A DNA stretch of 64,000 nt, taken from the NCBI GenBank assembly GCA_030386875.1, contig CM059559.1:66602392-66666391 (forward strand), given 5' to 3'. The position numbers were made by a program, and so were the translations under genes. This document shows positions 9,983 through 64,000 of this stretch, piece by piece. The first letter of the stretch is position 1. Each line of letters begins with the position of its first letter. Below the pieces are notes generated by a model. It did not search any database. It saw only the letters and a list, made by a program, of their open reading frames with translations, and had not been told where the DNA came from. The DNA comes from Morinoia aosen. Its lineage: Eukaryota > Arthropoda > Malacostraca > Amphipoda > Talitridae.

Positions 9983-10239
9983 GGTGAGGTTTGAAATTAT
10001 TTAAATTATTAATAACATTCAAATTATATTAGGCATCATTCGAATTCCATGTAATATTATGTGTGTATTTGACATCAAATTTTTATTTCTTCTTCGGATA
10101 TTCTACAGTAGAATATGTGCATTAATTCCACTTCACCGTAACACAGCGCATTACTGCTATACTTGGCGCGCGCGCTCTCGTCATGAGGGTGCACACTAGC
10201 CGCGCACTGCTGACCCTATACCGTCCCGCAGCGAAAGGG
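9983..10239 (+). other. piggyBac right-end non-coding region
   Basis: AT-rich 3' region after the transposase stop, then a GC-rich terminal stretch (ggcgcgcgcgctctcg near 10164) and the right inverted repeat. No polyadenylation site can be fixed with confidence. Confidence 0.6.
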
Positions 10240-10243
10240 TTAA
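10240..10243. other. TTAA target duplication, right copy
   Basis: Directly follows the piggyBac right inverted repeat and matches 7956-7959. Confidence 0.93.
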
Positions 10244-11288: not shown

Positions 11289-13127
11289 GGACACCTGGGT
11301 TGCATTCCCCATCAATTTGTTTTCGCTGCATGTATTAATGCTAATATTGTTCCTCCGTGTGAAGCTCCTCTTCTGGAGATTGAACGCTTCTCCTCCTATC
11401 CCAAATTACTAGGTACGATGGAGAAAGTGTTTAAAGCTGTCGCTATTTTTCGACGTGCAGATTTGGGCAATGCAAAATTGCGAGCCTTCATTTTTCTAAT
11501 TTCTTCTATGCAAAGTAAATACTTTGCAGGCGAGCTCGAGGCCTTAAAAAATAAAAGTCCTCGGCCGCCTCTGTTAGTTAGAACCTTTAATCTTTTCCTT
11601 GATTCGCACGGTCTCATTCGATCTAACGGTCGTATTGCAAACGCTGAAGAATTAGATTATAACACTCGAAACCCCATTTTACTGTCTTGTTCTTCTCACT
11701 TGACCAATTTGTTAATTTTGCATACTCATAAACTTCTTAACCATCAAGGGCTCGATATCACCGTTCAAAAGCTTAAGCTGGACGGTTATGTCTTGCAACG
11801 CTGTAAGCGTACTGTGCGCGGCGCGTTGGCTAAATGCACGGTGTGCAAGAAGCTAAACACCAAAGCGTTTTCATATCCTGATCCTCCTGCTTTGCCTGAC
11901 TCTCGTACTAATTTCGTAAGGCCCTTTGCCACAACCGGCATGGACTTCTCTGCCCACTTTTGGGTATTAGACCCTTTTGGTCACAAACAAAAGGTTTATT
12001 TACTATTATTCACGTGCTTTCAAATTAGAGCTCTCCATATCGAACTTCTTCCTTCCATGACTTTGGAGGAATTCTGTTTTGCCTTTATTCGTTTTACAAA
12101 CGAAAAGGGCATTCCTAACACTGTATATTCTGACAATGCTAGAACTTTCACCGCCGCTCCCGATCTTTTATCGGAAGTGTTAACTTCCTCTTTGTATGAA
12201 GAGCGGTTTCGCCCTTTTAATATAAAGTTCAAAACTATCCCAATCTACAGTCCTCAATTTGGAGCGATTTGGGAACGTCTGTTTAAGTCCATAAAGGACT
12301 GTGTGTATAAACTTTTTGGCCGTAGCACCTACTCCTATTCTTCTTTCCTTACTGTCATTTCTGATATTTCTCTCAACCTTAATCGGCGTCCTCTCTCTTA
12401 CACTGAGATGGGGGACACGATCTTACCTATAATGCCTATTCAATTCCTTCAACTATATCCTACATCTAATTCTTTAATTCTGTCCGATGAGCTTCCGGAC
12501 TTGGAGACCGACGATGTTGAACGTCGCGAGTATTTGCTCTCACTTTTGGAGAGACGCGATGTCATGGTTGCCAAGTTCCGGGAGCTCTGGTATACTCAAT
12601 ATTTAATTTCCTTGCGAGGTCCATATCCTCTGAAATCTATACCCTTTAACAATAAACTATTATCTGTGGGTCAAGTGGTACTTGTGAAACACCCTATAAA
12701 ACCCAGACCATTTTGGGCCTTGGCTCGCATCAGTGCTTTGCTCCCTGGTCGCGATGGCAAGGTCCGTGTTGTGCGAATTATTAGAGCTGACAACTCTGAA
12801 AGCGCCATCAAAGTCTCGCTACTATACCCGCTGGAGTTAGCTGTCACTGATCCTACTCCAGAGGAGGTGTGGGATAGCGTAGAAGGGAGTAGTTCGGGCG
12901 AGGAATTGCACCCTCGTTTCGAACCTCCCGAGAGTTTTGAAACTCAAAGGAGTAGTTCTACCTTTGAACACCCTGGAGGTCAGCCTCTTACTTCTTCTTC
13001 CTCTGACACGGATTCTTCGGCCTTTTCCGAAGAACCCGTAGCTACTTCTGCTGACCGTCCTAGAAGGCAAGCGGCGCGTCAGCAGCGTAGTAAGTTAACC
13101 TATTTAATTAAGAAAGGGCAATTGTAA
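11289..13127 (+). CDS. pol: BEL/Pao pol, 3' part: integrase
   Basis: This 3' section would insert the element cDNA into the genome. It is open from the TAG at 11286; the first ATG is at 11418, giving 569 residues to the TAA at 13125. An HHCC zinc-binding domain is visible ('HTHKLLNHQG', then 'CTVCKKL'). The DDE core follows: Asp in 'TGMDFSA', Asp in 'YSDNART', Glu in 'AIWERLFK'. A C-terminal domain contains 'VGQVVLVKHP', and a Ser-rich acidic then basic tail ends the protein. The stop codon overlaps the start of the 3' LTR (13123). It is interrupted only by the upstream TAG. Confidence 0.87.
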   Translation, partial: GHLGCIPHQFVFAACINANIVPPCEAPLLEIERFSSYPKLLGTMEKVFKAVAIFRRADLGNAKLRAFIFLISSMQSKYFAGELEALKNKSPRPPLLVRTFNLFLDSHGLIRSNGRIANAEELDYNTRNPILLSCSSHLTNLLILHTHKLLNHQGLDITVQKLKLDGYVLQRCKRTVRGALAKCTVCKKLNTKAFSYPDPPALPDSRTNFVRPFATTGMDFSAHFWVLDPFGHKQKVYLLLFTCFQIRALHIELLPSMTLEEFCFAFIRFTNEKGIPNTVYSDNARTFTAAPDLLSEVLTSSLYEERFRPFNIKFKTIPIYSPQFGAIWERLFKSIKDCVYKLFGRSTYSYSSFLTVISDISLNLNRRPLSYTEMGDTILPIMPIQFLQLYPTSNSLILSDELPDLETDDVERREYLLSLLERRDVMVAKFRELWYTQYLISLRGPYPLKSIPFNNKLLSVGQVVLVKHPIKPRPFWALARISALLPGRDGKVRVVRIIRADNSESAIKVSLLYPLELAVTDPTPEEVWDSVEGSSSGEELHPRFEPPESFETQRSSSTFEHPGGQPLTSSSSDTDSSAFSEEPVATSADRPRRQAARQQRSKLTYLIKKGQL

Positions 13128-14007
13128 CCCCTTTCAAACTATATGTAATGCGCAAAATTTATTATTAGTCCTTTCCAGTTTATGCTGGAAGGACGTTTGC
13201 ATGTACTTGTTTGTATTTCACGGAATTTTCTATGAAAACTCCGTCTTTTTCTTTTGCCGGGATTGTGTCGCAACTCCAGCCTTGCTTCCCCTTTTAAGAC
13301 CCTTGCAAGTTAATTAATATCTTGCACTATCGGGGACTAGGTCATTATTTAACCTCTAACTGACCAAAAAGATAAAACGCAAATTAAATATGACAAGCGG
13401 GCAATGGTTGGAGTGCTTCACCTTCCTGGCAGCAAAAATTAATGTCGAACAACCCTAAAGTGTTCGTTTGTTTGTTGCGAATCAATCCGAAGCCACAGCT
13501 GCGGATTCGAATCATCGTCGAAGAGGCAGCTCTCGCGAGTTGCATCTTCAGATTGAGACGAACTTTGGGGCCGAACGCACGTGTGCCTTGCGTGCTTAAA
13601 GCTCTTCCGGCCCTGCTTCTGGGAAGCTTAAATCCTGGACAGCCGGCTTCCAGTGGAGAATGTTCCCTGAACAAATTCTTCGAAGTTTCAGGTGAGCACT
13701 CTTGAATTATTGTCTAGCTTGTCAAAACTTAGTTTAGCGTTCCGAAAAGACTATGGTCTGTGCCAGTTAAAACTGGAAGTTGTCGCTTCTTGCCGGTAAG
13801 CGAGACAACCCTAAATTCTTCCCAGTTTGCCATTTTTATATGCAATTTTCTTTCACACTCCTGACCTTCTGCATTGACTCCTTTCCATCCCAGTTATATT
13901 CAAACACAAGCATTTTATGGTCACTATCATACAGTCAATTGCAGTTTTCCATTCTCTGCTTTGCTATGTATGCAAGCTATATCCTATTTTGACATTCAGG
14001 TCTACAA
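13123..14007 (+). repeat. Probable BEL/Pao 3' LTR; right end not determined
   Basis: It begins TGTAACCCC directly after a purine tract, as an LTR should. Without a 5' copy to compare, I cannot place its 3' end; it must lie before 14008, where the foldback target duplication starts. An open frame at 13384-13674 on the minus strand has no recognisable product. The rest shows nothing else. Confidence 0.5.
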
Positions 14008-14291: not shown

Positions 14292-14726
14292 TTAATTAAG
14301 AACTTGAAGAGGAACAGATGAATCAGTTGCGTTTAGTGTTGGTTTAATCTGATGAATAAGGATGCTTTCTAATAATCTTATATCTTGTCTACTACTGTGC
14401 CCTATAATTTCAAAGTTATTCTGATTGATTGGGTGACCAGCTAAATGTGCATGATCTCTGATACTACTATGTAATGTTTGGTTGGTAGCTCTACCAGTAC
14501 GTACGGATATGCCCTTATGCTCTGCTATGCGCGTTACTAAGTGGCGAGTGGTCTCTCCACAATATGTAGCATTACACTGGCTACATGTATATTTATAAAC
14601 GACGCAACTTTGTAGAGACTTAGGCATCCTATCAGTAAACCGGAAGAAACTACCAACACTGAAACCATTGCGAAAAATAATTCTTGGATTGAGCTGTGGG
14701 TAATATTTGGACAGTAGCAATATCAC
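14292..14726 (-). pseudogene. PLE C-terminal fragment with GIY-YIG endonuclease, left copy
   Basis: About 144 codons, identical or nearly so to the C-terminus of the right copy at 15045-15479. It contains a GIY-YIG-type segment ('VVYKYTCSQC', then 'YCGETTRHLVTRIAEH') and the downstream Glu in 'LLESILIHQ', the nuclease domain that cuts target DNA for PLE insertion. The reverse transcriptase is absent because the copy is truncated where the two arms meet. It is not a functional gene on its own. Confidence 0.85.
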
Positions 14727-14732
14727 AAATTA

Positions 14733-15479
14733 ACCAATACTGGTCTGGGAATGAAGTTTAATAGTGCAATAAATGTTAACTTTAAGTACAACCTTGTTTC
14801 TGGTCTTGTAAATAGAGCTTTTAAAATCTGTTCAACGTATGACGCTTTTTCAGCCCGACTTGAGTATTTGCGTTCTTATTTTTGCCGTAACTGTTTCCCG
14901 CTCTCTGTCGTAGAAAAAATTTTCCGTGCAACCATTGAATGTAACCGCAAGGATAAGATGCCAAATTATGATGTGCAGAAAAAAATTTTATATATATCCG
15001 TTAACTATATGTCAAATGCATTAAATCACTATGTTAGGAAGGAATTAATATTGCTACTGTCCAAATATTACCCACAGCTCAATCCAAGAATTATTTTTCG
15101 CAATGGTTTCAGTGTTGGTAGTTTCTTCCGGTTTACTGATAGGATGCCTAAGTCTCTACAAAGTTGCGTCGTTTATAAATATACATGTAGCCAGTGTAAT
15201 GCTACATATTGTGGAGAGACCACTCGCCACTTAGTAACGCGCATAGCAGAGCATAAGGGCATATCCGTACGTACTGGTAGAGCTACCAACCAAACATTAC
15301 ATAGTAGTATCAGAGATCATGCACATTTAGCTGGTCACCCAATCAATCAGAATAACTTTGAAATTATAGGGCACAGTAGTAGACAAGATATAAGATTATT
15401 AGAAAGCATCCTTATTCATCAGATTAAACCAACACTAAACGCAACTGATTCATCTGTTCCTCTTCAAGTTCTTAATTAA
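14733..15479 (+). pseudogene. PLE 3' fragment (RT C-terminus plus GIY-YIG), right copy
   Basis: Open from the arm junction to a TAA at 15477; the first ATG is at 14751, giving 242 residues. It covers the end of the RT region (short 'TGLG' motif, then a helical linker) and the GIY-YIG nuclease ('VVYKYTCSQC', 'YCGETTRHL', 'LLESILIHQIK'). It is the same family member as the left copy and distinct from the 838-residue PLE at 25339. Lacking the catalytic RT motifs, it cannot be autonomous. Confidence 0.85.
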
Positions 15480-25338: not shown

Positions 25339-27855
25339 TCATGTATTTGCAACGAGAAGAGGAAAAGCACTTTGAGTATCATTTAGAGGGGGTCTGAGCT
25401 TAAAGATGTATAGCGACTCGAGGATGCGTAAATCAATCATATGAGGGGCACCTGCAAGGATTTTAAAATGATTTACGGAAACAGGGACGTTACAGTTTTC
25501 GGCATGGGATCGAACAGAGGACAGTCGAGGAGAACCAAGTGGACGACCGGTTCTACAGCTGCGCCCAGCGTGCTCGGCTACTCTGGACATAAGAGTACGA
25601 CAGGTGGAACCTATGTACTGTGATTCACAACGTGAACAACTAAACTGGTAAACCACAGAGGAGCACATAGCAGTGGGCAGCTTATCCTTAAAGCGGAAAA
25701 GGGAACCGATTGTGAAATTGTTGACTAGAATAGAATGAATTTTAAGTTGCGGAAAAAACTTGCTGATTAGGAGTTGAACCTCCTGATTTAACTTGATAGA
25801 TTGATGACCAAAGAAGGGAAGCTTTAAGAAAAATTTCTGTTGATCACATGATTGGAGTGCCGGCGTTCGATCATAAATCTTAGACAAAAATTTACCAATA
25901 TGTTTATCGATAGTAAACAGAGGAAATCCATTCTTAAGAAAAAATTGTCGTAAAAAGTCAAATTCTTGATGTAAAATTCGAAAGTTAGAACAAACTTTAA
26001 ACGCTCTATGGACGAGAGTTCGAATGCCGCAGAGCTTAAAACGGGTCGCACAGAAACTAAAATAACTAGTACCTAAACCCGAGAAAGTGCCTTTCCTAAA
26101 AACAGAACATTGGAAAGTATTATCAATTCTTCTAACATTGACGTCCAGAAACGGTAAACGGCTGTTCGTTTCATCTTCCCTGGTAAAATTAATATTCTTA
26201 TGACGAGAATTCAAATAGTTGAGAAAAAGGTCCGCATGAGATCTCTCTTTGAATAGAACAAATGTATCGTCTACATACCTTCTGTAAAAAACCGGTTTGA
26301 AAAGGTTGGGACAGTCATTTAACCAACTTTCCTCATGATGGCACATAAAAATATTGGCGAAAGTTGGACCGAGAGGTAAACCCATGCCCAATCCATCTAT
26401 CTGCTGGTAATATTTGTTGTTGAAGATGAAAAAACAATTGCAAACAGCCAGTTCTAACAGTTTCTGCATAATCTTACGGGAAAACCCCATGAATACAGAA
26501 CAATTTGAGAATAATTTGGCCAAACAGATTTCAATGGTTTCAATCAACGGAACATTTGTAAACAAACTATCTACGTCAAAAGAAGCCATGAACAGGTCAT
26601 CAGTGTTATCAAAGTCTGATAAGCTCTCTACAAAAGATCTTGAGTTGTCAACGGTATAAGAATTCGTAGTAAGGGGTTTTAAGATTGGAACAAAAAACTT
26701 AGCTAGATTAAAACTCGGGGTGTTAAACGCTGCAAAAATTGGCCTAAACTGAAATTTCGAGGAGAAATCTGGCTTATGTATTTTGGGGAGACCATACAAA
26801 GTACCGGGTCCTGAGCCCGTCGCACGAAGTCTGGTGTAATCCTCTTTAGGAAGAGAACCCTCATTCTTTAAGCGTAGTAAAAAATTATTTATTTTATCCT
26901 CGATGCGCATGGAAAATTTCTGTATTGGCTCTGTAATCTCTTTAAATTTTCGATCCCCTGACAAAATATCATTCATGCTCTCAATGTACCTAACCCTATC
27001 AACCAAAACCACACCTTTTCCCTTATCAGGCCTAGAAACAATAATATCCTTATTGGAAGCCAGATTCTTTAAAAGAACTATATCGTCTCTAGAAAAAATT
27101 GCAGAGAAAATTTTGAAAGATTTAAAATTATAAAAATATTTATGGGCCACATTCCGGAGCTGACTAGAAAATTGTACAAAATTTAAACACTGGACGGACT
27201 TTAACTGAAGCAACAACTTCTCGAAACTCAGGTAATAGGAAAAGAAGTTTAACTTGTACACAGGCAAGCAAAATTCCAGACCGAAGGCTAGTAATCGGCA
27301 AACTCTATCAGGGACATGTAAAGAACTATAGTTAAAGATAACATTTTTAGGATCAACAGGTTCTAGCCTGTTCTCTATACCCAAATCCTGAAGTTTCCTA
27401 TTGTGGGTAGCGATTGTTGCACACTCAAAATTCTTATTGATTGATACCGCGTAGTGCTTGACAAGGACACGATCAAGCGGCGAGAAAGAAGATAATGACG
27501 CTGTGCATTCGTCTAGCTTCGTCGTAAGGTTGCAGACAGTCTTCTTCTTGTTCTTCATTTCACGGAGTAGAAGTTTGGACTGCCAGGAACGGTAAAACAC
27601 TGTCGTCTGCAGGGATCTTCGGTACAGCCGGAATCGCAAAAATTTCGGAAATATATTGTAAATTTTGCAGGATGTCAGGAACTTCACGTCTAATCTAGCT
27701 TTCGTTAATTTCCTGATTGTATTTTGGTAACTCCGTAAAATTCGAAAGCCATTTTCACCGTATCGTTCTCTAACGTAATCTAAAACTGAATCCGCATTGA
27801 CGCGTCTTATTCTTAAAATGAAAAGCAAGGCGAAAATCGCTGTACGAATTGACAT
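25339..27855 (-). CDS. Penelope-like reverse transcriptase with GIY-YIG endonuclease
   Basis: The 838-residue protein is open throughout and starts at a true ATG inside the pseudo-LTR. It would copy element RNA and cut target DNA. An N-terminal region of about 300 residues precedes the RT core. RT motifs seen: 'YGLPKIHK', motif A 'FDVDSLFTNVP', motif B 'GLGMGLPLGPTFANIFM', motif C 'YVDD' at residues 527-530, motif D 'LPFLDV'. The C-terminal GIY-YIG domain includes a Cys pair ('CSRCESQ') and 'YIGSTCRTL' (Tyr747), with a late conserved Glu in 'ILESLYIF'. This order and length match canonical PLEs. No disabling change is visible, so it may be functional. Confidence 0.95.
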   Translation of the reverse strand: MSIRTAIFALLFILRIRRVNADSVLDYVRERYGENGFRILRSYQNTIRKLTKARLDVKFLTSCKIYNIFPKFLRFRLYRRSLQTTVFYRSWQSKLLLREMKNKKKTVCNLTTKLDECTASLSSFSPLDRVLVKHYAVSINKNFECATIATHNRKLQDLGIENRLEPVDPKNVIFNYSSLHVPDRVCRLLAFGLEFCLPVYKLNFFSYYLSFEKLLLQLKSVQCLNFVQFSSQLRNVAHKYFYNFKSFKIFSAIFSRDDIVLLKNLASNKDIIVSRPDKGKGVVLVDRVRYIESMNDILSGDRKFKEITEPIQKFSMRIEDKINNFLLRLKNEGSLPKEDYTRLRATGSGPGTLYGLPKIHKPDFSSKFQFRPIFAAFNTPSFNLAKFFVPILKPLTTNSYTVDNSRSFVESLSDFDNTDDLFMASFDVDSLFTNVPLIETIEICLAKLFSNCSVFMGFSRKIMQKLLELAVCNCFFIFNNKYYQQIDGLGMGLPLGPTFANIFMCHHEESWLNDCPNLFKPVFYRRYVDDTFVLFKERSHADLFLNYLNSRHKNINFTREDETNSRLPFLDVNVRRIDNTFQCSVFRKGTFSGLGTSYFSFCATRFKLCGIRTLVHRAFKVCSNFRILHQEFDFLRQFFLKNGFPLFTIDKHIGKFLSKIYDRTPALQSCDQQKFFLKLPFFGHQSIKLNQEVQLLISKFFPQLKIHSILVNNFTIGSLFRFKDKLPTAMCSSVVYQFSCSRCESQYIGSTCRTLMSRVAEHAGRSCRTGRPLGSPRLSSVRSHAENCNVPVSVNHFKILAGAPHMIDLRILESLYIFKLRPPLNDTQSAFPLLVANT

Positions 27856-28075
27856 TTTATTATTACAAATAGTAAAGTCTAAATGAATAAAATTGAACGT
27901 TTCGAACTAAACAGTTCATCTTCAGCAAAGAAAAGAATTCTGCGACAAAACAAAACGAAAATGAGTAAATTGAAACTATACTATGCAAACGAATACTACA
28001 ACATATACAGAAAAAGTCGTAGATGTAAAACTAAAATATAAAACAAAACAAAAATTAAAAAACCTAAACTAATGA
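27778..28075 (-). repeat. PLE pseudo-LTR, upstream copy
   Basis: Counterpart of 25041-25338. It joins the 3' end of the truncated copy to the 5' end of the complete copy. The full copy's ATG (27853-27855) lies within it. Confidence 0.85.
27898..27925 (-). ncRNA. Hammerhead-ribozyme-like core in PLE pseudo-LTR (upstream)
   Basis: Identical to 25161-25188. Two copies flanking one element are what a ribozyme-processed tandem transcript would need; processing itself is inferred. Confidence 0.65.
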
Positions 28076-29644
28076 TCATGTATTTGCAACGAGAAGAGGA
28101 AAAGCACTTTGAGTATCATTTAGAGGGGGTCTGAGCTTAAAGATGTATAGCGACTCGAGGATGCGTAAATCAATCATATGAGGGGCACCTGCAAGGATTT
28201 TAAAATGATTTACGGAAACAGGGACGTTACAGTTTTCGGCATGGGATCGAACAGAGGACAGTGGAGGAGAACCAAGTGGACGACCGGTTCTACAGCTGCG
28301 CCCAGCGTGCTCGGCTACTCTGGACATAAGAGTACGACAGGTGGAACCTATGTACTGTGATTCACAACGTGAACAACTAAACTGGTAAACCACAGAGGAG
28401 CACATAGCAGTGGGCAGCTTATCCTTAAAGCGGAAAAGGGAACCGATTGTGAAATTGTTGACTAGAATAGAATGAATTTTAAGTTGCGGAAAAAACTTGC
28501 TGATTAGGAGTTGAACCTCCTGATTTAACTTGATAGATTGATGACCAAAGAAGGGAAGCTTTAAGAAAAATTTCTGTTGATCACATGATTGGAGTGCCGG
28601 CGTTCGATCATAAATCTTAGACAAAAATTTACCAATATGTTTATCGATAGTAAACAGAGGAAATCCATTCTTAAGAAAAACTTGTCGTAAAAAGTCAAAT
28701 TCTTGATGTAAAATTCGAAAGTTAGAACAAACTTTAAACGCTCTATGGACGAGAGTTCGAATGCCGCAGAGCTTAAAACGGGTCGCACAGAAACTAAAAT
28801 AACTAGTACCTAAACCCGAGAAAGTGCCTTTCCTAAAAACAGAACATTGGAAAGTATTATCAATTCTGCTAACATTGACGTCCAGAAACGGTAAACGGCT
28901 GTTCGTTTCATCTTCCCTGGTAAAATTAATATTCTTATGACGAGAATTCAAATAGTTGAGAAAAAGGTCCGCATGAGATCTCTCTTTGAATAGAACAAAT
29001 GTATCGTCTACATACCTTCTGTAAAAAACCGGTTTGAAAAGGTTGGGACAGTCATTTAACCAACTTTCCTCATGATGGCACATAAAAATATTGGCGAAAG
29101 TTGGACCGAGAGGTAAACCCATGCCCAATCCATCTATCTGCTGGTAATATTTGTTGTTGAAGATGAAAAAACAATTGCAAACAGCCAGTTCTAACAGTTT
29201 CTGCATAATCTTACGGGAAAACCCCATGAATACAGAACAATTTGAGAATAATTTGGCCAAACAGATTTCAATGGTTTCAATCAACGGAACATTTGTAAAC
29301 AAACTATCTACGTCAAAAGAAGCCATGAACAGGTCATCAGTGTTATCAAAGTCTGATAAGCTCTCTACAAAAGATCTTGAGTTGTCAACGGTATAAGAAT
29401 TCGTAGTAAGGGGTTTTAAGATTGGAACAAAAAACTTAGCTAGATTAAAACTCGGGGTGTTAAACGCTGCAAAAATTGGCCTAAACTGAAATTTAGAGGA
29501 GAAATCTGGCTTATGTATTTTGGGGAGACCATACAAAGTACCGGGTCCTGAGCCCGTCGCACGAAGTCTGGTGTAATCCTCTTTAGGAAGAGAACCCTCA
29601 TTCTTTAAGCGTAGTAAAAAGCTGCAATATTCAATAAGCTGCAT
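28076..29644 (-). CDS. 5'-truncated PLE RT/GIY-YIG copy with an LTR-derived N-terminus
   Basis: This copy matches residues from about 324 onward of the full PLE, keeping all RT motifs ('YVDD') and the GIY-YIG domain. Three amino-acid differences from the full copy are visible. Upstream of the break (29622) the frame continues into element A's LTR: an in-frame ATG lies at 29644, giving 522 codons, and the frame stays open back to about 29752. The LTR TATA box sits at 29778-29789 in the same orientation, so an LTR-initiated mRNA could encode this protein. The N-terminal PLE domain is absent. Confidence 0.8.
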   Translation of the reverse strand: MQLIEYCSFLLRLKNEGSLPKEDYTRLRATGSGPGTLYGLPKIHKPDFSSKFQFRPIFAAFNTPSFNLAKFFVPILKPLTTNSYTVDNSRSFVESLSDFDNTDDLFMASFDVDSLFTNVPLIETIEICLAKLFSNCSVFMGFSRKIMQKLLELAVCNCFFIFNNKYYQQIDGLGMGLPLGPTFANIFMCHHEESWLNDCPNLFKPVFYRRYVDDTFVLFKERSHADLFLNYLNSRHKNINFTREDETNSRLPFLDVNVSRIDNTFQCSVFRKGTFSGLGTSYFSFCATRFKLCGIRTLVHRAFKVCSNFRILHQEFDFLRQVFLKNGFPLFTIDKHIGKFLSKIYDRTPALQSCDQQKFFLKLPFFGHQSIKLNQEVQLLISKFFPQLKIHSILVNNFTIGSLFRFKDKLPTAMCSSVVYQFSCSRCESQYIGSTCRTLMSRVAEHAGRSCRTGRPLGSPPLSSVRSHAENCNVPVSVNHFKILAGAPHMIDLRILESLYIFKLRPPLNDTQSAFPLLVANT

Positions 29645-30218
29645 GAGAGTAGGATTCCCTTCACTTTTCTTACAAAGAACAAAGAACAATGTTTCACCTC
29701 CCCCTCGAAGAACTCGTTGTCCTACATCTTGTTTCGCACCAGGCCACAGCAAAATAGGCCGATACCCTACTCCTTCCTTTATTTATATACCTTCCCTCGA
29801 ACAAAGATGCGCACCGTGCGCCTTGCTACACCCGCGAAAACTGAAAGTGACGTAGCGTTTCGCGATTGGCCAACCCTCAAGCGTCACCTCACTATAATGA
29901 CGTGTCCCTTACTTCACAATATTGCTACGCATATATCTCTAAAATAAACCCAGAAACCCTTGACTTCTTAACTCATATGAAATTCAATTTTTTAACCCAC
30001 TGTTTTCTGTGCTATGTATTCAAGTTGCCCTCGTCTTATTACGTATAGCGCACTAGCTTTTCAATTCAGCTTCTACCCCATACGTACTCCTCCTTGCTCC
30101 TGATGTACGTATGTACGTCACACCTTCCTATGCCTATCGGTATGCTGCGCTGCGTCGACTCTGGAGCCAGTTGCTTGCCTATCCTTGCCTATCCTCTCTA
30201 CGTATCTATGTCGTAACA

Positions 30219-33487: not shown

Positions 33488-34759
33488 GAACTAAATCGAG
33501 GTAACGTTCATACTTTTGGAGAAGGCTTAAGTAAAATTGCAGTTCAGGCCCGTATATTTTAATTTCGTTTATTATTTAATAGGCTATACATATTTGCACA
33601 GTATTGTTCAGCGTAGAATTCAAATTTGAAAACCATTTCATTCGGCGATCTCTACTTTTTGAGTTATAGCGTTTCAAATGTGTAAAATAATACGCATCCC
33701 CCTCAACAGCTCATTACTAATTTATGTTCTTAAAGCAGCATTCACATGATCAATATTACTTAAAATATTTACTATTAGTGTAAATATATTGATCGTCTGA
33801 ACGGCATACTGATAGACTGATGAAAATATTTATGTGATCAAAATTTTCTGAAATTTCATCAAAATTTGAGCATTCTTGGATTGATGGAAAGTACTCTATA
33901 TGAACGTGTGAACGCAACCAAGAGTTCGTCCAGTTGCCAAAAATCGTAGAGTTAGAGCCGGTCTCTCATTACTGAAATGCCTCCCCTCTTTGTGGAATCT
34001 TCCTCGGTTATTCAAAATATCCAGAAGCTAATAATATATATCATCGTTCATTCGGAGCTGGTTATAAAAGTCTTCCAGTTCCGTTACCCTTATGCCATTA
34101 AATCAATTCACATAAGTGTACATATTGCGTTTCAAAATCCACTCCTCCCCCGATTTCTTCCGATTTCGTCTCTTTTTCTATAGCAAAACAATTAGTAGCT
34201 CAAAATTTTTTGGCCCTGATTTAAGCACAACATTAACCACTTCCGATAGAAAGTTCGAGCAACTACTGATAGAAATATCGACAGCACATTATTGATCGGG
34301 CGAACTCGATATATTATTAATGAGTTGAATATATTATAGATTTTTTTACATTATAATTATAAAAGAAAAAAGAATCAAATTCTACTACAATGTTTTCATT
34401 TGCAAGGAGAAATATAGAATTCAGGGCCCATCGTGTTTCGCCACAAGCTGCTACATCTGGTACTGTGTTAATCCATTACTGATTACGGGCGCTCGTATGC
34501 ACGTGGAAATTTATTTATTCATTTTCTTGGTAGCGGATACCAACGCACTGCAAAGATGGGGATAAAGCCCAGAAAACTAAGATGTGTAGATGTAAGCGAT
34601 AGGGAATTTGTGCATGTCGCTTTGCTACCCCTCCCGTGTGGAAGGAGCTTTGGTGTATAGAATAGATAGATTATCTTGGTAAATACTTTTTGCGGTAATG
34701 GTGCATGTGCTGTGCGCTTTCACCAAGCCTTTTATCATAGATGCCAAATTAATTCTCAG

Positions 34760-37294
34760 GTTCCCAAAGGACGAAGCCTTGCGTGAGAAGTTGGTGAATG
34801 CCTTACGCAGAGAAGGCTTTACACCCGGCAAAAGCACAGCAGTGTGTTCCCAACATTTTAAGAATGACTGTTTTGACACTAACGTCCAGAGTTGCAGAAA
34901 ATTGCTCAGAGGAGCTGTACCCTCCATCTTCCCCAGCTTTCCCTCATACATGCAGACAGGCGGCTCTTTGGTTAGAAAACCTCCTGCGAACAGGGACACC
35001 GCTTCGACTTCTGCAGTACACGAAACTGCTGCATCTAGCAGTGTGGATGAAGAGGCAACAAATGTCTCCACTGCCTCAAATATTAGCGAGCTGGATGATA
35101 CACCAAGGAAAAAAGCATTTAAAGGGAAACTTGAGCTAAAATAATGCCAATTGATGACATCAAGAAAAAAAATAAAGACGCTCCAACAAGACCAAAGGCG
35201 CTTGAAGAAGAAAAACAGTGAACTCTCCACCGTGCTCAGTAACTTGAAGAAGAAAAATATAGTAAATGGGCAGTGCTTAGACATTATTGAAGCGGCAGGG
35301 GGTGGAGTATCCGATCTCCTTAAGAGAAAGTTTGCCAAGAGTAATAATGGGAAACTCGCAAGAGTGTATTCTCCACAGTTGAGAACCGTTACCCTAACAC
35401 AGCACTTCTATTCTCCAAGAGCCTCCGCGTATGTCCGAAAATCATTTGACACATGCCTGCCGCATCCTAAAACGTTACAGAAATGGTACAGTAGCATCAA
35501 TGGTGCACCAGGCTTTACTGAAGAGGCGTTCGAAGCGTTGAAACGAAAGTTTTCAACGTCTGAAACTGAGAAAAAAATCCCATGTGCTCTGATGATGGAC
35601 GAAATGGCTATACGGCAACAAGTGGAGTGGGACGGGAAAAAGCTGCATGGCCAAGTGGACATCGGCACAAGCATCGAAGACGACACCCTGCCGGTTGCTA
35701 GTAATGCCCTCGTATTCATGGTAGTAGCTCTCGATACTAGTTGGAAATTACCTATCGGTTACTTTCTTATTAATGGACTATCTGGTCGAGAGAGAAAGCA
35801 TCTGGTTCTCGAAAGTATTTCGCGACTGCATGACGTTGGGATATGTCTTCGTACTCATACTTTTGACGGCGCATCTTCCAATATTTCAATGGCTAAAGAA
35901 TAAGGTTGTACTATTAGTTATGATAACATTGTTCCTTATTTCTCCCAGCCCATCGATGGACAGCAAATACATATATTTCTGGATCCATGCCACATGATCA
36001 AGTTGGAGCGCAACATGATAGGTGATATGAAGTTTATAGTAGATAGTGAAGGTAAAACTGTTAAGTAGGATTATGTTCGTCAGTTACATGATTTACAGGA
36101 TTCGCATGGGTTACATTAGGGAAATAAATTAAGAGCTGCCCATTTGAACTACTTCAAGAAGAAGATGAATGTTAAATTAGCCACACAAGTGCTTAGCAAC
36201 TCAGTTGCAGATTCTCTCCAGTTTTGCAACGAGAACAAAATCTCCGGGTTCGAGCTTTGCGAAGCAGCAATAAAATTTATTCGAATATTTAATAGAATAT
36301 ACTGAACTCAAGAAATTTACGGTCATTCGGTTTCAAGCGTCCTCTAGGTGCAGAAAATGCCGTAACCATACTACCAAAAATTGAGAAAGATATGTTATAT
36401 ATACAAAATTTAAAGTTGGCTTCCACTGGTGAACTGATCTGCCGTACAGGACGAAAGACCGGATTTCTAGGACTTCTTGTCTGTCTCACCAGTATCAAGA
36501 ACATCTTTAAGAAATTGGGTGAATTCGGTATGACGTACTTCACTTGTTACAAAGTGAGCCAAGACCATATTGAATTATTTTTCAGCAAAATACGACGTCA
36601 CAGTGGTGTTAACTACAACCCTAACGCGAAACAGTTTGAAGCGGCTTACAAAATGATACTAATTCACAACGAACTTCAGGAAGTAATGCGGGGAAATTGC
36701 TCGGCTTTGGAAGAAATTCAAATATTAACGTGCACGAGCGCAAATGCTAAATGCAGTCTGCTCTACAGACAGTATATCAACATTTTAAACGGCTCTACTT
36801 CAAGAAATAAACTTACATTAGAAGACTTGAATTCATTAAGTAGCGATAATTTGAGTATAGATGAAGAAAACTTTGTCATCGGAAGTGAATTTGGAACTTC
36901 TACATATGCAGAAAATGTGGTGGGCTACATTGCTGGCTGCATTGTGAGGAAATTGAGGGAATGTATACGATGTGAAAACTGGGTTTCGGCAATGCTCTCA
37001 GAAAAAAAATACAGCAGCACGTTTGCGCAACTTAAGTGTAAGGGTAGTTTAATAGTTCCTTCTGATGACGTCTTTAAGATCTGCATGAAAGCCGAAAACA
37101 GCTACCGTACAAATACAAAAAGTACATGTGATCAGTTTAAAACATTAGACGTTTTGAAAGCGGTTAATGAGGTGTTAGAAGCATGCATTGGATACGAACT
37201 ACTGAATACTTTAAACTATTGTGTGCCTGACTCCATTTTCAATAACCACAGACTCCTTATAATAAAAGCTTTTCAGCAAAATATATCGTACTAA
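34760..37294 (+). pseudogene. P-element transposase (THAP9-like), decayed
   Basis: This would be the GTP-dependent cut-and-paste transposase of a P element. In order: second half of the THAP domain ('RFPKDEALREK', 'VCSQHF'), a Ser/Thr-rich linker, a coiled coil ('RRLKKKNSELSTVLSNLKKK', 35200-35260), then the catalytic and GTP-binding-insert region ('ALMMDEMAI', 'FDGASSNISMAKE', 'FLDPCHMIKLERN'), and a C-terminal part from about 36392 ('DHIELFFSKIRRHSGVNYNP'). In-frame stops lie at 35142, 35901, 36066, 36117 and 36303, followed by a frame change near 36310-36390. It is a non-functional relic. Terminal repeats were not identified. Confidence 0.85.
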
Positions 37295-53679: not shown

Positions 53680-53777
53680 TTAGTTATGTTAGTAGTTGAC
53701 TGTTAGTTATGACTCAACAGCCGGCGTGGCTGCATCTGTGCACTGAACTGTTGTTTCAATTGATCGTTTGATCCAAT

Positions 53778-55956
53778 ATGGGTAGAAAAAAGAACTTCGA
53801 GGATTTGCCTCAAAGGCAGAAGCGACGCCGTATTAAAATATCTATATTAGAGACTGGTAGAGTGCCTACTATCTGTGAAACTACTAGTAGTAATCTTTTT
53901 GCTAGTAGGAGTGATGGCCACTTTAGAAGTGGCCTTAAGCTGCATGCAAATGCAGAACAAAATATACAGCCAACTACTGAAACATATCAGAAAGAAAGTG
54001 ATATAGGAAGTGAATCTCCGCTTGAAATGATGGATCACAATGACTCATCAATACAAACTAGTAGAGCTGAGAGAGCTGCGTCTGAATCACAGGATTCATG
54101 TGAAAATTTTTATCTGAAAAGCGATGATGTACCAATTACCACATGCACCATCGACTGCGGAAATTTTCTGCGATCAAAATTTGAGAATTGCATAAATGAA
54201 GAAAAACAAGTTCCTCTCGCAGCTGTAGATAGATTATTAAATATGTTGGCTCCAAGGTACCTGGGCTTACCAGCTTCAGCGAAATCATTGTGCCAAAAAG
54301 TTGATGAATTTAATATAAAAGACATGGGTAATGGTGAATTTTCTTATTTTGAATGCTGGCGGTTTCAATTAGAAGCATATATTTTGCAAAATTATACGGT
54401 AAGAAGCAACAAAATATATTACACGTCAAAATTAACGTGGATCGGTTGCCTCATACTAATGCTTCAATTAGGTATAATGCATATCCAATTCTTTTACAAG
54501 TACTGGAAATTCCCAAACAAATATTCTGTGCAGCAATATATTGCACCAACAAGATATGTTCTAATCACATGCCGCCGACAAGAGAGTTTTTAGAACCATT
54601 TTATGAACGATTTTGCCTTAGAGCAACAATCAATGAGGAATAAGGGGTTTACTGTTAAGCTGGGACCTTTTGTGTGTGATGCTCCAATAAGAGTAGCTCT
54701 AAAAGAAATTGTTAGTCATAGCGGTTATTCAAGCTGTGAGCGCTGCACTCAACGCGGTCAGTATCATGATTGCACTGTTGTCTACCCTGAACTGGACTTT
54801 GATGAGAGGACAGATGAAAGTTTTGCCAGACGATAAGATAATAATCATCACATGGCATTGTTAAAATCTCCATTAGAACAATTTGGATGCAATATGGTTA
54901 GTGACTTTGTCATTGATTACATGCACTGTTGTCTACTTGGGACTATGAAAAGATTCTTGAGCAGACTCAAGAGCAGCAGAGCCAATCAAAAGAAAATGCA
55001 TATGAGTTCACAAGCAAAATTAAAATTCAATGAAAAGCTACTTCAATGTTCCGTGTATTTGCCAGATGATTTCTCAAGAAAATTAGAAGGGGGAATTGAA
55101 AAAAATGGTGCATTGGAAAGCAACAGAATTTCGGACATTTCTTTTATACTGTGGAACACTTGTTTTACGCAGCTCCAAAATTGTGAGTAAGGAGGTGTAC
55201 AATAGTTTCTTACATTTTTCTCTGGCCATGAAGTTACTTTTACTTGATGATCAGCAAAAAAATGTTGACGTGATTAAAAATCTTCTCCATGCATTTATTC
55301 AGAAAACAAGTTTATTTGGGAGAGGTTTCATCAGCTATAATGTTCATGCCATGATTCATCTTCCACAAGATTATATTAGATTTGGCAAACTCGAAAATGT
55401 ATCTACCTTTCCGTTTGAAACATACCTAGGCAATCACATAAAAAGTGCTGTAAGGTCTCGTTTTAAACCCCTGAGTCAAATCTCCAAACATGTTGCTCAT
55501 ACTAACTTCAACTGGAAACAACAGACTGAAAAGGAATATGTAAACTGTTGCAAAATATCCAACAAAGAGTGCCGTGGGAAAACACAAAATGAAAAGTGCT
55601 ACAAAAAGTTGAAAATTAAAAACAATTTGTGCCTGAAAATAAAATCTCACTCGGAAAGAAACAGTTGTGTACAATTGGCAGATGGTCGAATTGGATTTAT
55701 CATTAAAATCCACAAACTTGAAAATAATATAACATTACTGTTTACTCATTTTCTACACAAACTTGATTTTTTCACTGACCCTTTCCCGTCATCAAAAATT
55801 GGTATTTTCAAACTATCTAACTTAATAAATGATGCAACTTGGATATCTTTAGATGATATTGTATCAAAAATGGTAATTTTTCCTTATAAAATGATTGTCT
55901 TGCACAGGTTCTCATACACAGCACCTGAGCAAAACTGTTCACTTCAATATATTTAA
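53778..55956 (+). pseudogene. CACTA (EnSpm)-like transposase, frameshifted
   Basis: Begins at ATG 53778 with a basic N-terminus ('GRKKNFEDLPQRQKRRRIKI') and a Ser/Glu-rich stretch. Transposase homology follows: 'VPLAAVDRLLNMLAPRYLGL', then in a shifted frame (54400-54640) 'ILHVKINVDRLPHTNAS' and 'FCAAIYCTNKICSNHMPP', back in the first frame 'FVCDAPIRVALKEIVSHSGY', 'CERCTQRGQY' and 'FVIDYMHCCLLGTMKRFL' with a stop at 54834, then a third frame from about 55100 'HWKATEFRTFLLYCGTLVLR' and 'SYNVHAMIHLPQDYIRFG'. The CxxC and 'DYMH' motifs are typical of animal CACTA-like transposases. At least three frame changes make it a pseudogene. Family assignment is from memory of motifs. Confidence 0.7.
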
Positions 55957-57084: not shown

Positions 57085-57966
57085 GTAACAGCTAGCTACC
57101 TATATATTTTGATTGGATTATATCAATGAACATTAGCTGCATTACTATCTGCATAATCATTGGAAATCATGCTTGAAATTATTGAACTTATTTATCATGC
57201 CCCGCTATGAACCGTTCAGATTTTGCCTGATTTTTTAGGTTCTTCTGTTTGGGTTTGGCTGTTTTTTATTGTCTGTTTATCTGTCTGTCAAATGTAACGC
57301 TCTTTTTTCTTAATTCACTCCACAGTTTTACTCTGGTCTCATCGAAAGTTGCTTTAATCGATGTGTCTCAACATTCCCGACAGGGTAGTTGTAGTGGATT
57401 TTTCTGTCCATAATTTTGATTTAACTTCATCAAAAACGATATCAATTCATTTTGCCTCATCTTGGATGTGTGAAACAATTTTCATATTTGAGTTAGCCCT
57501 ATTTCCACCCCCAAAAATGTAAAATTCCCCAGGTTTGTTTTGATTTTGCCGTAAGTGGTATAAATCAATTTATCCTGTCAATTTCTAAAAATGAATGGTG
57601 ACAATTTATGAATTTGACCATCCCTTACTCCTACATTTCGAATGGGAACTCATCTCCCTACCCATCCATAGTTAAAAAAATAGTTTTACGTTCATCTACT
57701 TTGTAATTTTACTCCTATTTCATCAATAAAGGTATTAATGATTTCTCTTGCTATTCCAAATATGGAAACTGTAGTAGCAATTTGAATTTTGGATTTGTAT
57801 TGACGTGTCACCATTTCTATGCTCACCATTTGAACTTCGAACTATTCCAGTTCCACGTGAAATTAAACCCATCTGCAGTTTCAGCATGACTGCGGGTCTA
57901 GTTATCCCGTGTTTCAACAAAAATGGAAATGCTATACGTGATTCTAATGTCGATGTGTTTGAGCAG

Positions 57967-58189
57967 GTGTAAAAAGGCTCTTGATGGCCAGGAATTCTCA
58001 GCTGAATTGTCACAACTGAAACAAGTTCAGGAAAAAAATTCTAAGAAATTGGACAAGATTCTCTTCATGCTTCATCAGGAAAAATTGTCCAAAGCATCTG
58101 CAAAGGAGTACTTATCATGTAGCACAGGGCTACCTCCACCAGCTGAGACTCTTGATCAACTGGACGTTCTTCTTCAGACTCCAACACTC
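57967..58189 (+). CDS. Candidate exon of the CACTA-associated gene, helical
   Basis: Between an acceptor (tttgagcag) and a strong donor (ctc/gtaagt at 58190). It encodes an amphipathic helical stretch ('SAELSQLKQVQEKNSKKLDK') and then 'GLPPPAETLDQLDVLLQTP'. A coiled coil followed by a Pro-rich turn and 'L..LD.LL' is the layout seen just before the DUF4806 domain. The domain itself is not found downstream in the window. Phase is compatible with the exon at 56928-57084. Confidence 0.45.
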
Positions 58190-59499
58190 GTAAGTTAATT
58201 GATTTGAAAAACAGTTCCTAAGGTATGAGGTATGATCATACCACAATTTAATCGAAATCACTTCCAGATCTGTATTGTGCACGGTGAACTCGAAACATAT
58301 TTCTTCTGAGCAGGGTGTCTACTAGGTAGTAAAGTAGTATAAAGTAGTACAATTTAGAAAGTAGCAAACACTAGTAAAATTTGCCTAAGGGCAGTAAAAA
58401 AATTGTTAAGTGGAATAATTCTCTGAAATTTTAAAGTAATGTTACATATTTATTTAGCGTATAAGGATTTGTTTTACTTTATTTTAGCCATAATCAGAAA
58501 ATTTGCCCTGATTTTTGGGAAATATTCCTGTAGAGTGGGGTGTAGTTTTAGGATTGGAGCACACAAAATAGAAAAAAGTTTCAAAATTTTTGCGAACAGT
58601 AAAAACAGTTCACTTTTTCTTCTCATTCCGTTTGATCTGAAAATCTGGTTGTTTTGTGATCAAGTTTCATTTGAGCTATTTTATCATTAACATATTATTG
58701 AGAGAAAACAATAATACTCCCACAATAATAAAATAATAACAATTATACTCCCAATTATTATAAACAAATTATATTATATAACAAATATGACAAATGACGT
58801 TATTTGTCATATTTGTACAATTGTCATGAAGATATACGTAAATGATGCGTAAATCAGCACCTTGAGTTGCAATCATTCCTTGCTTTGCGGCATACTCAGG
58901 CACTCCTCCCAAGACCGAGAGGGGAATTCTGTCAAAACGAAAAATTCAAGAAGATTCCTGGGAAGAAAACAGACAGACACACTGGTTCCTAATACCACTG
59001 GTTCCAAACTGGTTCCTAATACCACACTAATACCACTGGTTCCAAACTTTTGGCTATATTTAAATTTTTCCCTTTTCTATCTTTATTATTATTGTTGCTG
59101 TTATTATGATAATATAACTCGTTCGATATCTACTTCTTTGTTGTTGTTATTAATATTGCGACATATTTGTTTTCATTTTCCTTTAAACTACGACGGAAAT
59201 GCTGAGCAAACATTTTTTATGATTTGCGATTTACAAGATGTAAATAAATTCACTTGTCTGTAGAACATCACCATTTTCATATATTCTGTCATCGAAGTTC
59301 ATCCGAACCATTTTTTAATTAAACTATTTTAAAATATAGTGAACTAATTTACCTTTTCATTCCTATATGTCATCAATCGCAACTGTTCAATGCAGTTTTA
59401 ATAAAGTTAGATTAATGATCCCCACTCATTTCTGTAAGAGCGTAAACTCCAACGCTGAAGTCGGGCACCACGTTTTGCTCACTTGCTCGTGTCTTCCAG
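58190..59499. other. Non-coding stretch before the homeobox exon
   Basis: Contains the hairpin at 58781-58816, a small tandem repeat (58981-59048, 'taccactggttcc') and a TTA-rich microsatellite near 59085. An ORF at 58862-59263 looks like chance. Confidence 0.45.
58781..58816. repeat. Perfect inverted repeat, 15-bp arms
   Basis: acaaatatgacaaat (58781-58795) and its inverse (58802-58816) enclose a 6-base loop. Confidence 0.85.
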
Positions 59500-59603
59500 C
59501 GCCTCGGCCCAGTGGGCGCCGGTCACGCAAGCCGGGGGCAGACCGCAAGCCGAGGCAGGCCTACAGCGCAAAGCAGCTCGAGCGACTAGAGGCCGAGTTT
59601 AAG
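59500..59603 (+). CDS. Homeobox exon: N-terminal arm and helix 1 of a homeodomain
   Basis: This exon would encode part of a homeodomain transcription factor. It is bounded by a good acceptor (gtcttccag before 59500) and a consensus donor (aag/gtgagt at 59604). It is about two-thirds GC in an AT-rich region. The product contains 'RKPGADRKPRQAYSAK' followed by 'QLERLEAEFK'. Numbering from the invariant residues, Arg5, Tyr8, Leu16 and Phe20 of a homeodomain are all in place, and the exon ends after residue 21. The basic, Pro/Arg-rich stretch before it fits the region upstream of a homeodomain. It looks like an ANTP/NK-like class member, but I will not name the gene. Helices 2-3 (WFQNRR) are not in the remaining 4.4 kb, so the next exon lies outside or the gene is broken. 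Confidence 0.8.
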
Positions 59604-62600
59604 GTGAGTTCCAGCCTTCAGATTCGAGCTGCAGCTTTGCTAGGGAAACTGCTCCAATATAAGCGATAAATTATAGCCCTTTAACTCCCCAAAGGACTAT
59701 TTGGTTTTCATTCGTAAACAGCCTTTTTGGCATTTTTGTTATATTCCTCTCGTAATGCAACCTTTGAAGTTCACGGTGGGCCGATTGGCAGTCCTTTCCT
59801 GATTCTGATGTCTACGAGAACCTGATCCTATCCAGTCTAATGACGGTTGCTGTGATAACGGTAATATTAATTATAAAAATGCTGACGTTTAAGGTTAAAT
59901 GAGTTTACTTCTTCGGTCAATGGATTCGAGCTGTCACTTTGTTTGTTGTTTCTACTCGTATTTGCGTAACAACAAGTTTGATATGGGCTTACTCACATGA
60001 ACTTCATAATAAGACCTGTAACTTCATGAGCAAAGATAGTGAAATTTCTTGCTACAAGTTAAAGGGGTTTCGCTGATTGAGTTCGTCAAGTAAAAGAGTT
60101 GTGTCGTTCAGTAAATTGGCATGGGTTCATCGTTGATACGTTTCTTAGATGAGGTCGTCGCTTTTACGGAACGTGAAAGTGTAAAAATAGTTTTATCGTC
60201 AGCTACCGGGACGTTTTTATTATGTATTTACTCGCAGGAGTAGTCAGAATACAATGCAAGAGGTAGAATAGAGCATCAAACTAATTTCTTTGAATAATTA
60301 TTAATCTAAGTATTGTATAACTCCTCAAATTTATCTTGTGGTTTCATTTCTGTTGATTTATTTTAAGAAATATTAATTCCCTCTGACATTTTTGAGGTTT
60401 GTGCATTGTCTAACCATAGGTTTAACAAGTAAAATACTTAAGTTCAAGTAAAATGAGCCGGTCATAGATCTTTCGAAAAACAAGGCACAAGAAATTAAAT
60501 TTGAAAACTTTGAAATCCCTGTATTGTAATTCAAGCGTCAGATTGCAATTTTTAAAAAATTGAGGGAATAATCCTCGATGTGTTCTTCCCGAATTGCACC
60601 CACGAGCGTTGACCAGGATTGTCTAAACTAGGATCGATACAAAGATATACAAAAATGAACAAACAAGAAGGCGCAGATCCTTGAGAGCATAAAAATGAAA
60701 AATATCGGCAAGAGTGACTTTAGTTTAATCCATTTACCCATTACCAATGGGTCGGAACAACTTTGAAAAATATCGAATAGCCGACCTCCAGAAAAAAAGC
60801 TGCTAGTATTAGAAATGCGTCAGCTTAAACACAAGATATGTGAAGCAGAGCCGTGTTGTTCGTTTAAGTTATCAGAAGGTCAACACTCCGGTAAAAACGA
60901 TTGAGAAATATTTTTGAACTCAGAAAAACAACTTACATGCACAAGAAACCAGTTCCTTCCATGGTGTAAGCTACCATAACTAAAACACAAAATTATCGCC
61001 TCAGTTTTGTAACACAGAAACGGAAGTGACCTGGTCTTCGTACATTGAAAATGTTCTGGTTCCCGTATAAGTCGTCGTATCAAAAGAAAAACCACTTAAG
61101 AAAATTTTCTTTCTGAAGACAGGTTCGTTGAAATGCACAGATGCCGCAAGATTTGTTGCCATAACCTTACTGCTTGAAAACTGATGAAGAATTTTAATTT
61201 TTTCACTCTCATCTCTTGGTTTGAACAGTATATATACATATGCGTTTGCATTATCCACGAATTCAAAACCTGTTCATCATCACACACCTGTCAGTGTTGC
61301 CAAGCGAGTAACCTAACTTCGAGCGTGAGTTCAAGTTCTGCTAAAAACTTTTAAGAAACCAGTATCTCGTACTCCAGCTTGCAATTCGTGTGAAATGCGT
61401 CTAAAAATAATAAAAAAAAATTCAAAAAATAATATTAAACACAATAAATATCAAATGTTCATTTTCTCTGCAGTATTACCAGTCCACATCATCAAATTAG
61501 TCTTGGGCATGTAATTGATGCAAGAGTTTTCGAAGAACAATTTTTCAGGCAATATTGTTGACTATCAGAAACACAAAATATCCTTTGTTCCTTCATCTTT
61601 TACTGACATATGAGACCTCATGAGGTTATATCTAATTGTAAAAATTGAAAGTATTTTTACTTCTGTCTATAAAACCTCCTACGTAGCATTGAAGGCTGCT
61701 CATCATCTACCGCGTGTAAAACGTGCAGAGATTATTCTAATGTTATATCATTGTTCAGAATGACCTTGAGCGTGCGACCATTGCGGTCCATACGCTGGTT
61801 ATATCTTTAGAATAAAAAGATTACTTGCCATAGCTGAACTGACTGTTTATTAACACAGGATTTTTCGAAACTCTTTTATGAAATTATTAGTCGTAGCTGC
61901 CAATAATGTAATATTAAATCCAAATGGATATTTATTTTTGTGTCGCGACTTCTCGTGCTCAAGAGAGGTCCAGATTCACACCTCGCCAAGTCATAAAACG
62001 CCCTCCGCCTTCGTTTGCGTTGTCGGCGTCTTCAAAAAGGAATGTTTAAGGTGCAAACTCATTAGTTGCCTTCTTCAAAACCAAGTATGCTAAGTTGGAA
62101 GACAGGATTTATACTTTTCGTAAAATTTTATTCAATATCCTGCCGTATTACTATGACATATATCATGTCACTTACATCTTAACTGTAACTGAATAACAGC
62201 TATTTTTGTCGCCAGCAGCCAGCGCCGAATTTTTTTTTATTCGGTTACTTGATTTTACTAATGTAAAGCCTAGACCCTACGTCCAAACTTGCCTTAAAAC
62301 AGGCTGACTGCTTGCTTCTTTTCTAATATCTGGTGCACCTTACATCCAGTCTCGCCCGCGGCTCTCAAGCGCCGATCGCGAGCGCAGTGATTCAGTCGAT
62401 GAGGTCTCCTGTTATAATTTGAGCAGGGCACACTTTTCTTCCTGCTGCTGGTGACATGCTTCAAATTTGGGAGGTTCATGGGCTATATTTCATTGTATAC
62501 CTGACGATGCTACTTGGGTGTGTTCAAAAATAATTGTACAATAACAGGGTAATAGTGAATTTAATAGCAGGAATAAATATCTATAACTAAATTGATATAC

Positions 62601-62903
62601 TGTATGTTAAATTAAACTAGGATATACAAGTTTTCCATCTTATGAAACTCGTATATTTCTTAACATTTTGTTGTCATAAACACAATTATTCATTGGACTT
62701 TGTCATGGCAGTCATAGCTGAGAGTAATTTCGACTACTGCTCCAACTTGATAGTTTTGAGTGTGCAGTTATCTGCACTTAAACAGGGTCATTCTTAATAA
62801 AAGCAGAACACAAAACGAGACAGCACTTTTCCAAAAATGAACCTGACAAGCGAGTTTCTTTTATTCTAAAAGGAAATAAATTGAGCGCTTTTCAAGACAA
62901 GAA
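59604..62903 (+). other. Presumed intron or intergenic DNA downstream of the homeobox exon
   Basis: No transposon hallmark and no convincing exon. A slightly GC-richer patch at 62340-62400 has no supported coding role. If the gene is intact this is the start of an intron longer than 4.4 kb. Confidence 0.45.
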
Positions 62904-62967
62904 ATCAATTTACACCCACGGGGGAAGTCGTGATCGATCACGACTTCCTCCGTGGGTGTAAATTGAT
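62904..62967. repeat. 64-bp palindrome without spacer
   Basis: Arms of 32 bp (62904-62935 and 62936-62967) with a single mismatch; the centre is gtgatcgatcac. Confidence 0.95.
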
Positions 62968-62979
62968 TCACTCATATAA

Positions 62980-63011
62980 ACATTATAAGTGATAATTATC
63001 ACTTATAATGT
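62980..63011. repeat. 32-bp perfect palindrome
   Basis: acattataagtgataa followed directly by its inverse. Confidence 0.95.
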
Positions 63012-63050
63012 GTCAGTTCAACAAAATCTGAAATAAAAGGCGGTTAAATA

Positions 63051-63088
63051 AACCACCCTTTATACTATATGATTTACAAAGGGTGGTT
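63051..63088. repeat. Hairpin with 11-bp stem and 16-base loop
   Basis: aaccacccttt (63051-63061) pairs with aaagggtggtt (63078-63088). Confidence 0.9.
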
Positions 63089-64000
63089 ACAGTTAGCAAC
63101 TAGTTGGAGTTTGTCAGTACGCGAAATGAGTCACGCTCTAAGCCAAGCACGATGTGCTGCGTCATCTTGCTGCTCAACTTTATTGCTGCGTTAAGTTGCA
63201 GCTGATGTGGCTTAGAGAAATTAACGGTATTGGTCTCAAAAGCACCATTAGTGACGTCTAAATGAAGCTCTCCTTATTGTAACGAAATTACAGCGTTAGA
63301 TTATGAATCCGAGATGATCCCATGAAGAGTTTCATTTAGACTGACAAAATTTAATAACGAGATCTATTTCGTTCTCGCTATCAAAAGAAACCTCAGAACA
63401 CAGAAGAGCAGATCGCGCATTTGTATTATCACTTTGACTGCAATTGGTTAAACTGTAATTTAATATTCAACTCAAATTTAAAGTCAATTGTTATAAGCGT
63501 TCTTGAAAATTGTAAACATTATCTGAATCATGCCTTAATTTAACTTTAATAAAGCATTAATGAAAATTGAATTTGTGATCACTGATCGATCAGCATCTTT
63601 TTGAAAATCCCTTCCGTGGCCACCGGTGGCGCACGTAGCGACCAGATTGTTAATATCATATTCATGAGAAATTTATGAAGCCCTTGACTGCAACTCGGTG
63701 CTTTTGTTCGTTATAAGTGTAGTTTATACGATGCAAATTTTCTGCTAAATTAACCGTAGTGGGTTCTGTTACTTCTATGATAGGAAACATGTAATAGACT
63801 GTCGAGAAAACATCTGATTTTTTCTTAATACTTGACCCGTAACATACGCCTCTGCAATATATTTTCTGCCAGTGATAAAGAAGTGAAAGTACACTGTATG
63901 ATTGAGCAAAGGAATTTTTGTTGATTTTTTTGTTAAGCTTATCCAGAGAGTTATGGAGTTGAGGAAATATTTTAATATTTTGGCCCCACAACTATGTAGC
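63089..64000. other. Right end of window, nothing recognisable
   Basis: AT-rich; a 109-codon minus-strand frame at 63662-63991 has no recognisable domain. Confidence 0.4.

Follow-up and report, generated by a model that had tools for sequence, protein, structure and literature searches.

The window, the whole 64,000-nucleotide stretch of DNA analysed here, was placed at C4:66602392-66666391 by a profile search of its own genome (1.99 Gb, 29 contigs) with PF00046; with 150 of the 312 candidates scored, this search gave at least 125 homeobox matches, one of which is the remainder of a homeodomain, located shortly after the window end. The genome is that of an arthropod, as indicated by its 115 Chitin_bind_4 matches; PF02949, used as an insect marker, matched neither this genome nor any control genome and is therefore uninformative. 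Positions 59500..59603 (plus strand) form a homeobox exon, the second coding exon of its gene. As read in the sequence, it is bounded by an acceptor, tgtcttccag/CG, at 59499/59500 and a consensus donor, AAG/gtgagt, at 59603/59604, both where the first-pass annotation had put them. Two bases complete a split codon and are followed by 34 full codons, the frame from 59502 being PRPSGRRSRKPGADRKPRQAYSAKQLERLEAEFK; the 35-residue product that had been proposed is reached if the split codon is counted. The exon starts in phase 1, ends in phase 0, and encodes the homeodomain up to residue 21, in agreement with the split that the annotation had described (the standard homeodomain numbering and invariant positions are used here). 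On its own, the exon matches the Pfam Homeodomain profile weakly (18 bits, E 0.0026, under the 22.9-bit cut-off). Joined to the next exon, it reaches 78.6 bits (E 3e-22) over profile positions 1-57 of 57, which confirms that the homeobox exon is real.

The next exon, with the expected WFQNRR, lies on the same contig beyond position 64000, starting behind its acceptor at window coordinate 69378 (C4:66671769), 5.4 kb past the window end. The intron splitting the homeobox after residue 21 is in phase 0 and 9,774 bases long; its in-window part occupies 59604..64000 (plus strand) and it extends to window coordinate 69377. An intron of over 4.4 kb had been claimed: the intron is present, but 4.4 kb is the distance to the window end and not its length. 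The first-pass annotation had also considered a retro-copied fragment. A processed retrocopy is rejected because this intron is kept and is homologous to that of the complete copy of the gene described below. The open reading frame at 57902-58189 was rejected as an upstream exon, since it ends at a phase-0 donor, which does not suit the phase-1 start of the window exon. No noncoding RNA match was found in the whole window with Rfam at gathering thresholds.

The gene is probably Bari, of an NK-linked homeobox family, as judged by a sequence pattern that we take to be that of the Bari-type homeodomain and that the homeodomain of the window gene fits. Among solved structures, no Bari was present in the best 60 of 117 matches, and Bari-type peptide strings (one, then five) looked for in the text of papers gave no hit. 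A fused engrailed construct scores through its two copies; otherwise the chains of BarH-like 2 are best, with 70-73 bits. BarH-like 2 (PDB 8r7f, 8pmn) is the best single-homeodomain solved match among the matches listed (about 72 bits, 34 of 57 residues identical), but it has TAFSDHQL and WYQNRR where the window gene has QAYSAKQL and WFQNRR. The BarH signature, TAFSD.QL..LE together with KTWYQNRR as in BARHL2, is replaced in the window gene by QAYSAKQLERLE and KTWFQNRR. Assignment to BarH was rejected because a separate locus of the same genome, L045 on C5, carries the BarH signature; its homeodomain shares 30 of 52 compared residues with that of the window gene. Another locus of this genome, L043, which we take to be NK1, is as close as BarH-like 2, with 34 of 57 residues identical. 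Row L001 was left out of this comparison, being out of register. The names of the other homeobox genes of the genome are likewise our assumptions from sequence. They include L003 and L004 (C14:33.81 and 33.95 Mb), presumably Msx-like, which encode the same homeodomain sequence and face opposite ways at a distance of about 137 kb, and a 2,634 aa open frame with four homeodomain matches at C21:120038500-120041376, which we presume to resemble a ZFHX-type multi-homeodomain gene. A genome search with the homeodomain and the residues that follow it returned 30 matches: the two copies of the gene stand out, with 188 bits for its own exon, and the best match outside the pair lies far below, at 72 bits and 46% identity. 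Bari is given as a synonym of CG11085 in flies in an excerpt of PMC6466738, a paper that also contains the accession MH971981 for onychophoran Bari.

The second copy of the gene lies 20.5 Mb from the window copy on the same contig, in the opposite orientation, with an equal PF00046 match in reverse at C4:46183894-46184022. This copy is complete: its coding span, C4:46286451-46183555 on the minus strand (C4:46.18-46.29 Mb), measures about 103 kb, of which intron 1 takes about 87 kb, and it comprises a 5′ exon with an eh1-like motif, the two homeobox exons, and a tail rich in serine and threonine. The eh1 motif is a repressor (co-repressor) motif. A scan for its pattern upstream of both copies found two frames, of 54 and 217 residues, both beside the complete copy. 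The longer one reads MDDETPKMSSLSPMTYR...FSISSIL...WYPPWMNAFKPAFGLQ plus one base, followed by GTGAGT, so that the exon ends one base into a codon, in the phase needed by the window exon. The 54-residue frame, which is A+T-rich, was set aside, as was a 703-base match upstream of both copies, which adjoins frames that presumably belong to a reverse transcriptase. The 201-residue product of the 5′ exon has a single match in the 1.99 Gb genome, and neither the eh1 scan nor the genome search found an eh1 exon near the window copy.

Homology between the copies begins abruptly at window position ~58840, inside intron 1, and the window copy is therefore devoid of the eh1 exon. In the complete gene, the 1.5 kb on the far side of the break gave short repeat hits but is otherwise single copy. 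On the window side, the end of a dispersed repeat with at least 39 further places in the genome is found at 58200..58717 (plus strand), about 120 bases upstream of the break, and open reading frames at 53772-55956, with a weak DUF4218 match under the curated cut-off, are possibly part of it. The first-pass annotation had placed the window in or beside a developmental regulator; a homeobox gene is indeed present, but not an intact regulator, since the window copy is a 5′-truncated inverted duplicate.

Several other elements are located further upstream in the window. The region 5211-13127 holds an element with DUF1759 and DUF5641 matches, which we take to be BEL/Pao-like; it is interrupted by a 598 aa open reading frame with a piggyBac-type transposase domain (8186-9982, 270 bits). 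Two frames, at 14292-14729 (minus) and 14718-15479 (plus), carry identical C-terminal sequence head to head and form an inverted pair of element ends. Adjacent frames on the minus strand at 25339-27906, with an RVT_1 match, and at 28076-29782 have nearly identical reverse-transcriptase sequence, the second with a different, shorter start; both are presumably Penelope-like. At 34683-35903, a frame with a THAP domain is followed by one with P-element-type transposase domains.

The window exon and its counterpart (C4:46198474-46198371) are identical at 103 of 104 bases, with a silent CTA/CTC difference. In the coding part of the next exon, 439 of 449 bases agree; in addition, the window copy carries a 10-base insertion there. 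Noncoding identity, calculated after removal of the exons and of the 200 bases that follow the coding part, is 17,231 of 19,002 bases (90.7%; 9.3% differ); together with the near-identity of the window exon, this value indicates that the exon is more than a chance resemblance. The inverted alignment of the copies consists of 22 blocks with 29,641 aligned bases, 2,281 mismatches, and 218 indels, the mean difference over this longer alignment being 7.7%, exons included in both cases. Collinear noncoding homology thus runs over genes and introns in opposite orientation, as in an inverted segmental duplication. Its in-window part, 58840..64000 (plus strand), is shared with C4:46.15-46.20 Mb in blastn blocks of 84-92% and runs past the window end; in all, the duplication covers the homeobox gene and its tail-to-tail neighbour NAA35, a subunit of NatC (Pfam 358 bits; PDB 7rb3 403 bits), over more than 40 kb. 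A query towards the far end of the duplication is itself a repeat. NAA35 occurs twice in the genome, duplicated with the homeobox gene, and has one further sub-threshold match elsewhere.

Three other homeobox pairs, chosen from several visible in the PF00046 listing and each situated on one contig, served as a control and are 99.87, 99.87, and 99.93% identical; they appear to be recent duplicates or unresolved haplotypes. The members of these pairs (L033/L034, L035/L036, and L037/L038) are 0.8 to 2.3 Mb apart and about 99.9% identical over 3 kb. Against these values, the 90.7% of the window pair outside exons marks it as far older. Identity along the duplication varies from 81% to 99% (200-base windows with at least 100 aligned bases), and around one NAA35 exon it is about 99%, intron flanks included; parts of the duplication may have been affected by gene conversion or by uneven constraint, which would make the timing less certain. 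Within the intron that splits the homeobox, the block 61200..62300 (plus strand), picked after the identity profile had been viewed, is more alike between the copies than the whole intron (94.8% versus 89.2%) and is a possible regulatory element.

Up to the insertion, the copies differ by seven silent changes and no replacement change in 118 codons, with a dS of 0.081, which is near the 9.3% measured for noncoding DNA. Under drift of the window copy only, with half of the noncoding divergence assigned to it, 12.5 replacements would be expected, and the probability of observing none is 2.8e-6. Set against the noncoding divergence, these counts indicate that both copies were constrained at the protein level for most of their history. 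The 10-base insertion throws the tail of the window copy out of frame, and 13 different residues stand in place of the final 64. The 195 bases that follow the insertion hold four changes, all of them replacements in the frame of the complete copy; about nine would be expected if only the window copy had drifted, and the chance of four or fewer is 0.048, so that the decay would be young. Across 397 codons of one NAA35 exon, 19 changes are silent and 4 are replacements, but another exon of the window-side gene has lost 5 bases and carries a stop (CAG to TAG); several window-side NAA35 exons are still open. An intron of window-side NAA35 contains an insertion of about 23 kb (C4:66707526-66730805), after which homology resumes at 92%; its first part resembles a repeat also present at window 13382-13807.

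Low replacement rates in both genes, combined with broken frames on one side, agree with an old duplicate that was long constrained and is now decaying. The reading that we consider reasonably probable is that the exon is part of an NK-type homeobox gene in an old inverted segmental duplication, 5′-truncated and recently decaying. A duplication within one arthropod chromosome would have produced a window copy (C4:66.66 Mb, plus strand) that begins inside intron 1 and that either never received the eh1 exon or has since lost it. Protein constraint would then have acted on both copies through most of the period after the duplication, before the window side began to decay through the frameshift in the homeobox tail and the frameshift and stop in NAA35. 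The cause may have been an inversion with staggered breaks or a segmental transposition. The direction of copying and the recency of the decay are read from the present state of the copies, the ancestral one being presumed from its completeness alone. Several observations weigh against this account: the lack of any replacement is hard to explain without a new start if the promoter and the eh1 exon were absent initially, and the variable identity, the small number of changes in the shifted tail, and the open window-side NAA35 exons also count against it.

Alternatively, the window copy could be a working new gene, expressed from a new or intronic promoter as a homeodomain protein without eh1 and the original tail. 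Its product would bind the sites of the complete protein and compete with it. A start would have to be gained anew for such a protein, and an in-frame ATG at 59367, with an open frame into the exon (59367..59499, plus strand), might provide one for expression from within the duplicated intron. This frame is open in both copies, but with two silent and eight replacement codon differences, it is not conserved as coding. The 118 codons free of replacement, the intact splice sites on both sides of the window exon and at the start of the next one, and the better-conserved intron block all agree with a working gene, and a precedent is present in the accessible part of PMC3355041, where GI22075 of Drosophila mojavensis is a copy of CG1208 without its first exon at an inversion breakpoint. 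The frameshifted tail and the broken NAA35 on the same side argue in the opposite direction, and we regard a working gene as possible, if doubtful. It is unlikely that the within-chromosome duplication made a stably kept homeobox gene that lacks eh1, retains an unchanged DNA-binding domain, and acts as a natural competitor.

An assembly artefact, in which one copy would be a divergent haplotype or part of a misjoined contig and the 5′ exon would be missing through a joining error, is very improbable. The three control pairs, alike to the degree expected of unresolved haplotypes, lend it some substance, whereas the window pair differs at 9.3% of bases outside exons, includes the insertion of about 23 kb on one side, and consists of reversed copies 20.5 Mb apart, and no N is present in either examined stretch. 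A normal, unbroken homeobox gene whose 5′ exon lies upstream of the DNA examined is hardly credible and largely refuted. The large insertions on the window side, including that in the NAA35 intron, would allow for such a distance, but the protein of the 5′ exon matches only once in the genome, the intron of the complete gene adjoining the break is single copy, and when 119 kb upstream of the window exon was compared with the 90 kb preceding the other copy, all matches past the break were scattered and non-collinear.

For annotation, the window locus should not be named an intact regulator. In the part of PMC10726417 available, Bari appears in a list of genes that spiders and horseshoe crabs often have in one copy, and the complete gene, if it is Bari, thus belongs to the possible constitutive singletons named there; here, in contrast, two copies are present, one of them truncated. 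Should the gene indeed be Bari, a second copy in which silent sites have moved while the protein sequence of the DNA-binding domain is unchanged bears on the idea of constitutive singletons, and the broken parts of the window copy suggest how such a copy gets lost. Otherwise, the locus is an ordinary partial duplicate. Among the papers searched, none was found to combine three of the four elements homeobox, partial duplication, lack of the first exon, and eh1. Among the closest known systems is that described in the accessible part of PMC3355041, according to which inverted duplicates arise at the two ends of an inversion whose breaks were staggered, and a gene may in this way be copied with its first exon missing. 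GI22075, like the window copy, is a partial inverted duplicate without the first exon in which a domain is retained. The two differ in content and scale, GI22075 being a sugar-transporter fragment in a 4.3-kb duplication and the present duplication comprising a homeobox gene and NAA35 over >40 kb; and GI22075 lies at an inversion breakpoint, whereas at the window locus an inversion is one of two proposed causes.
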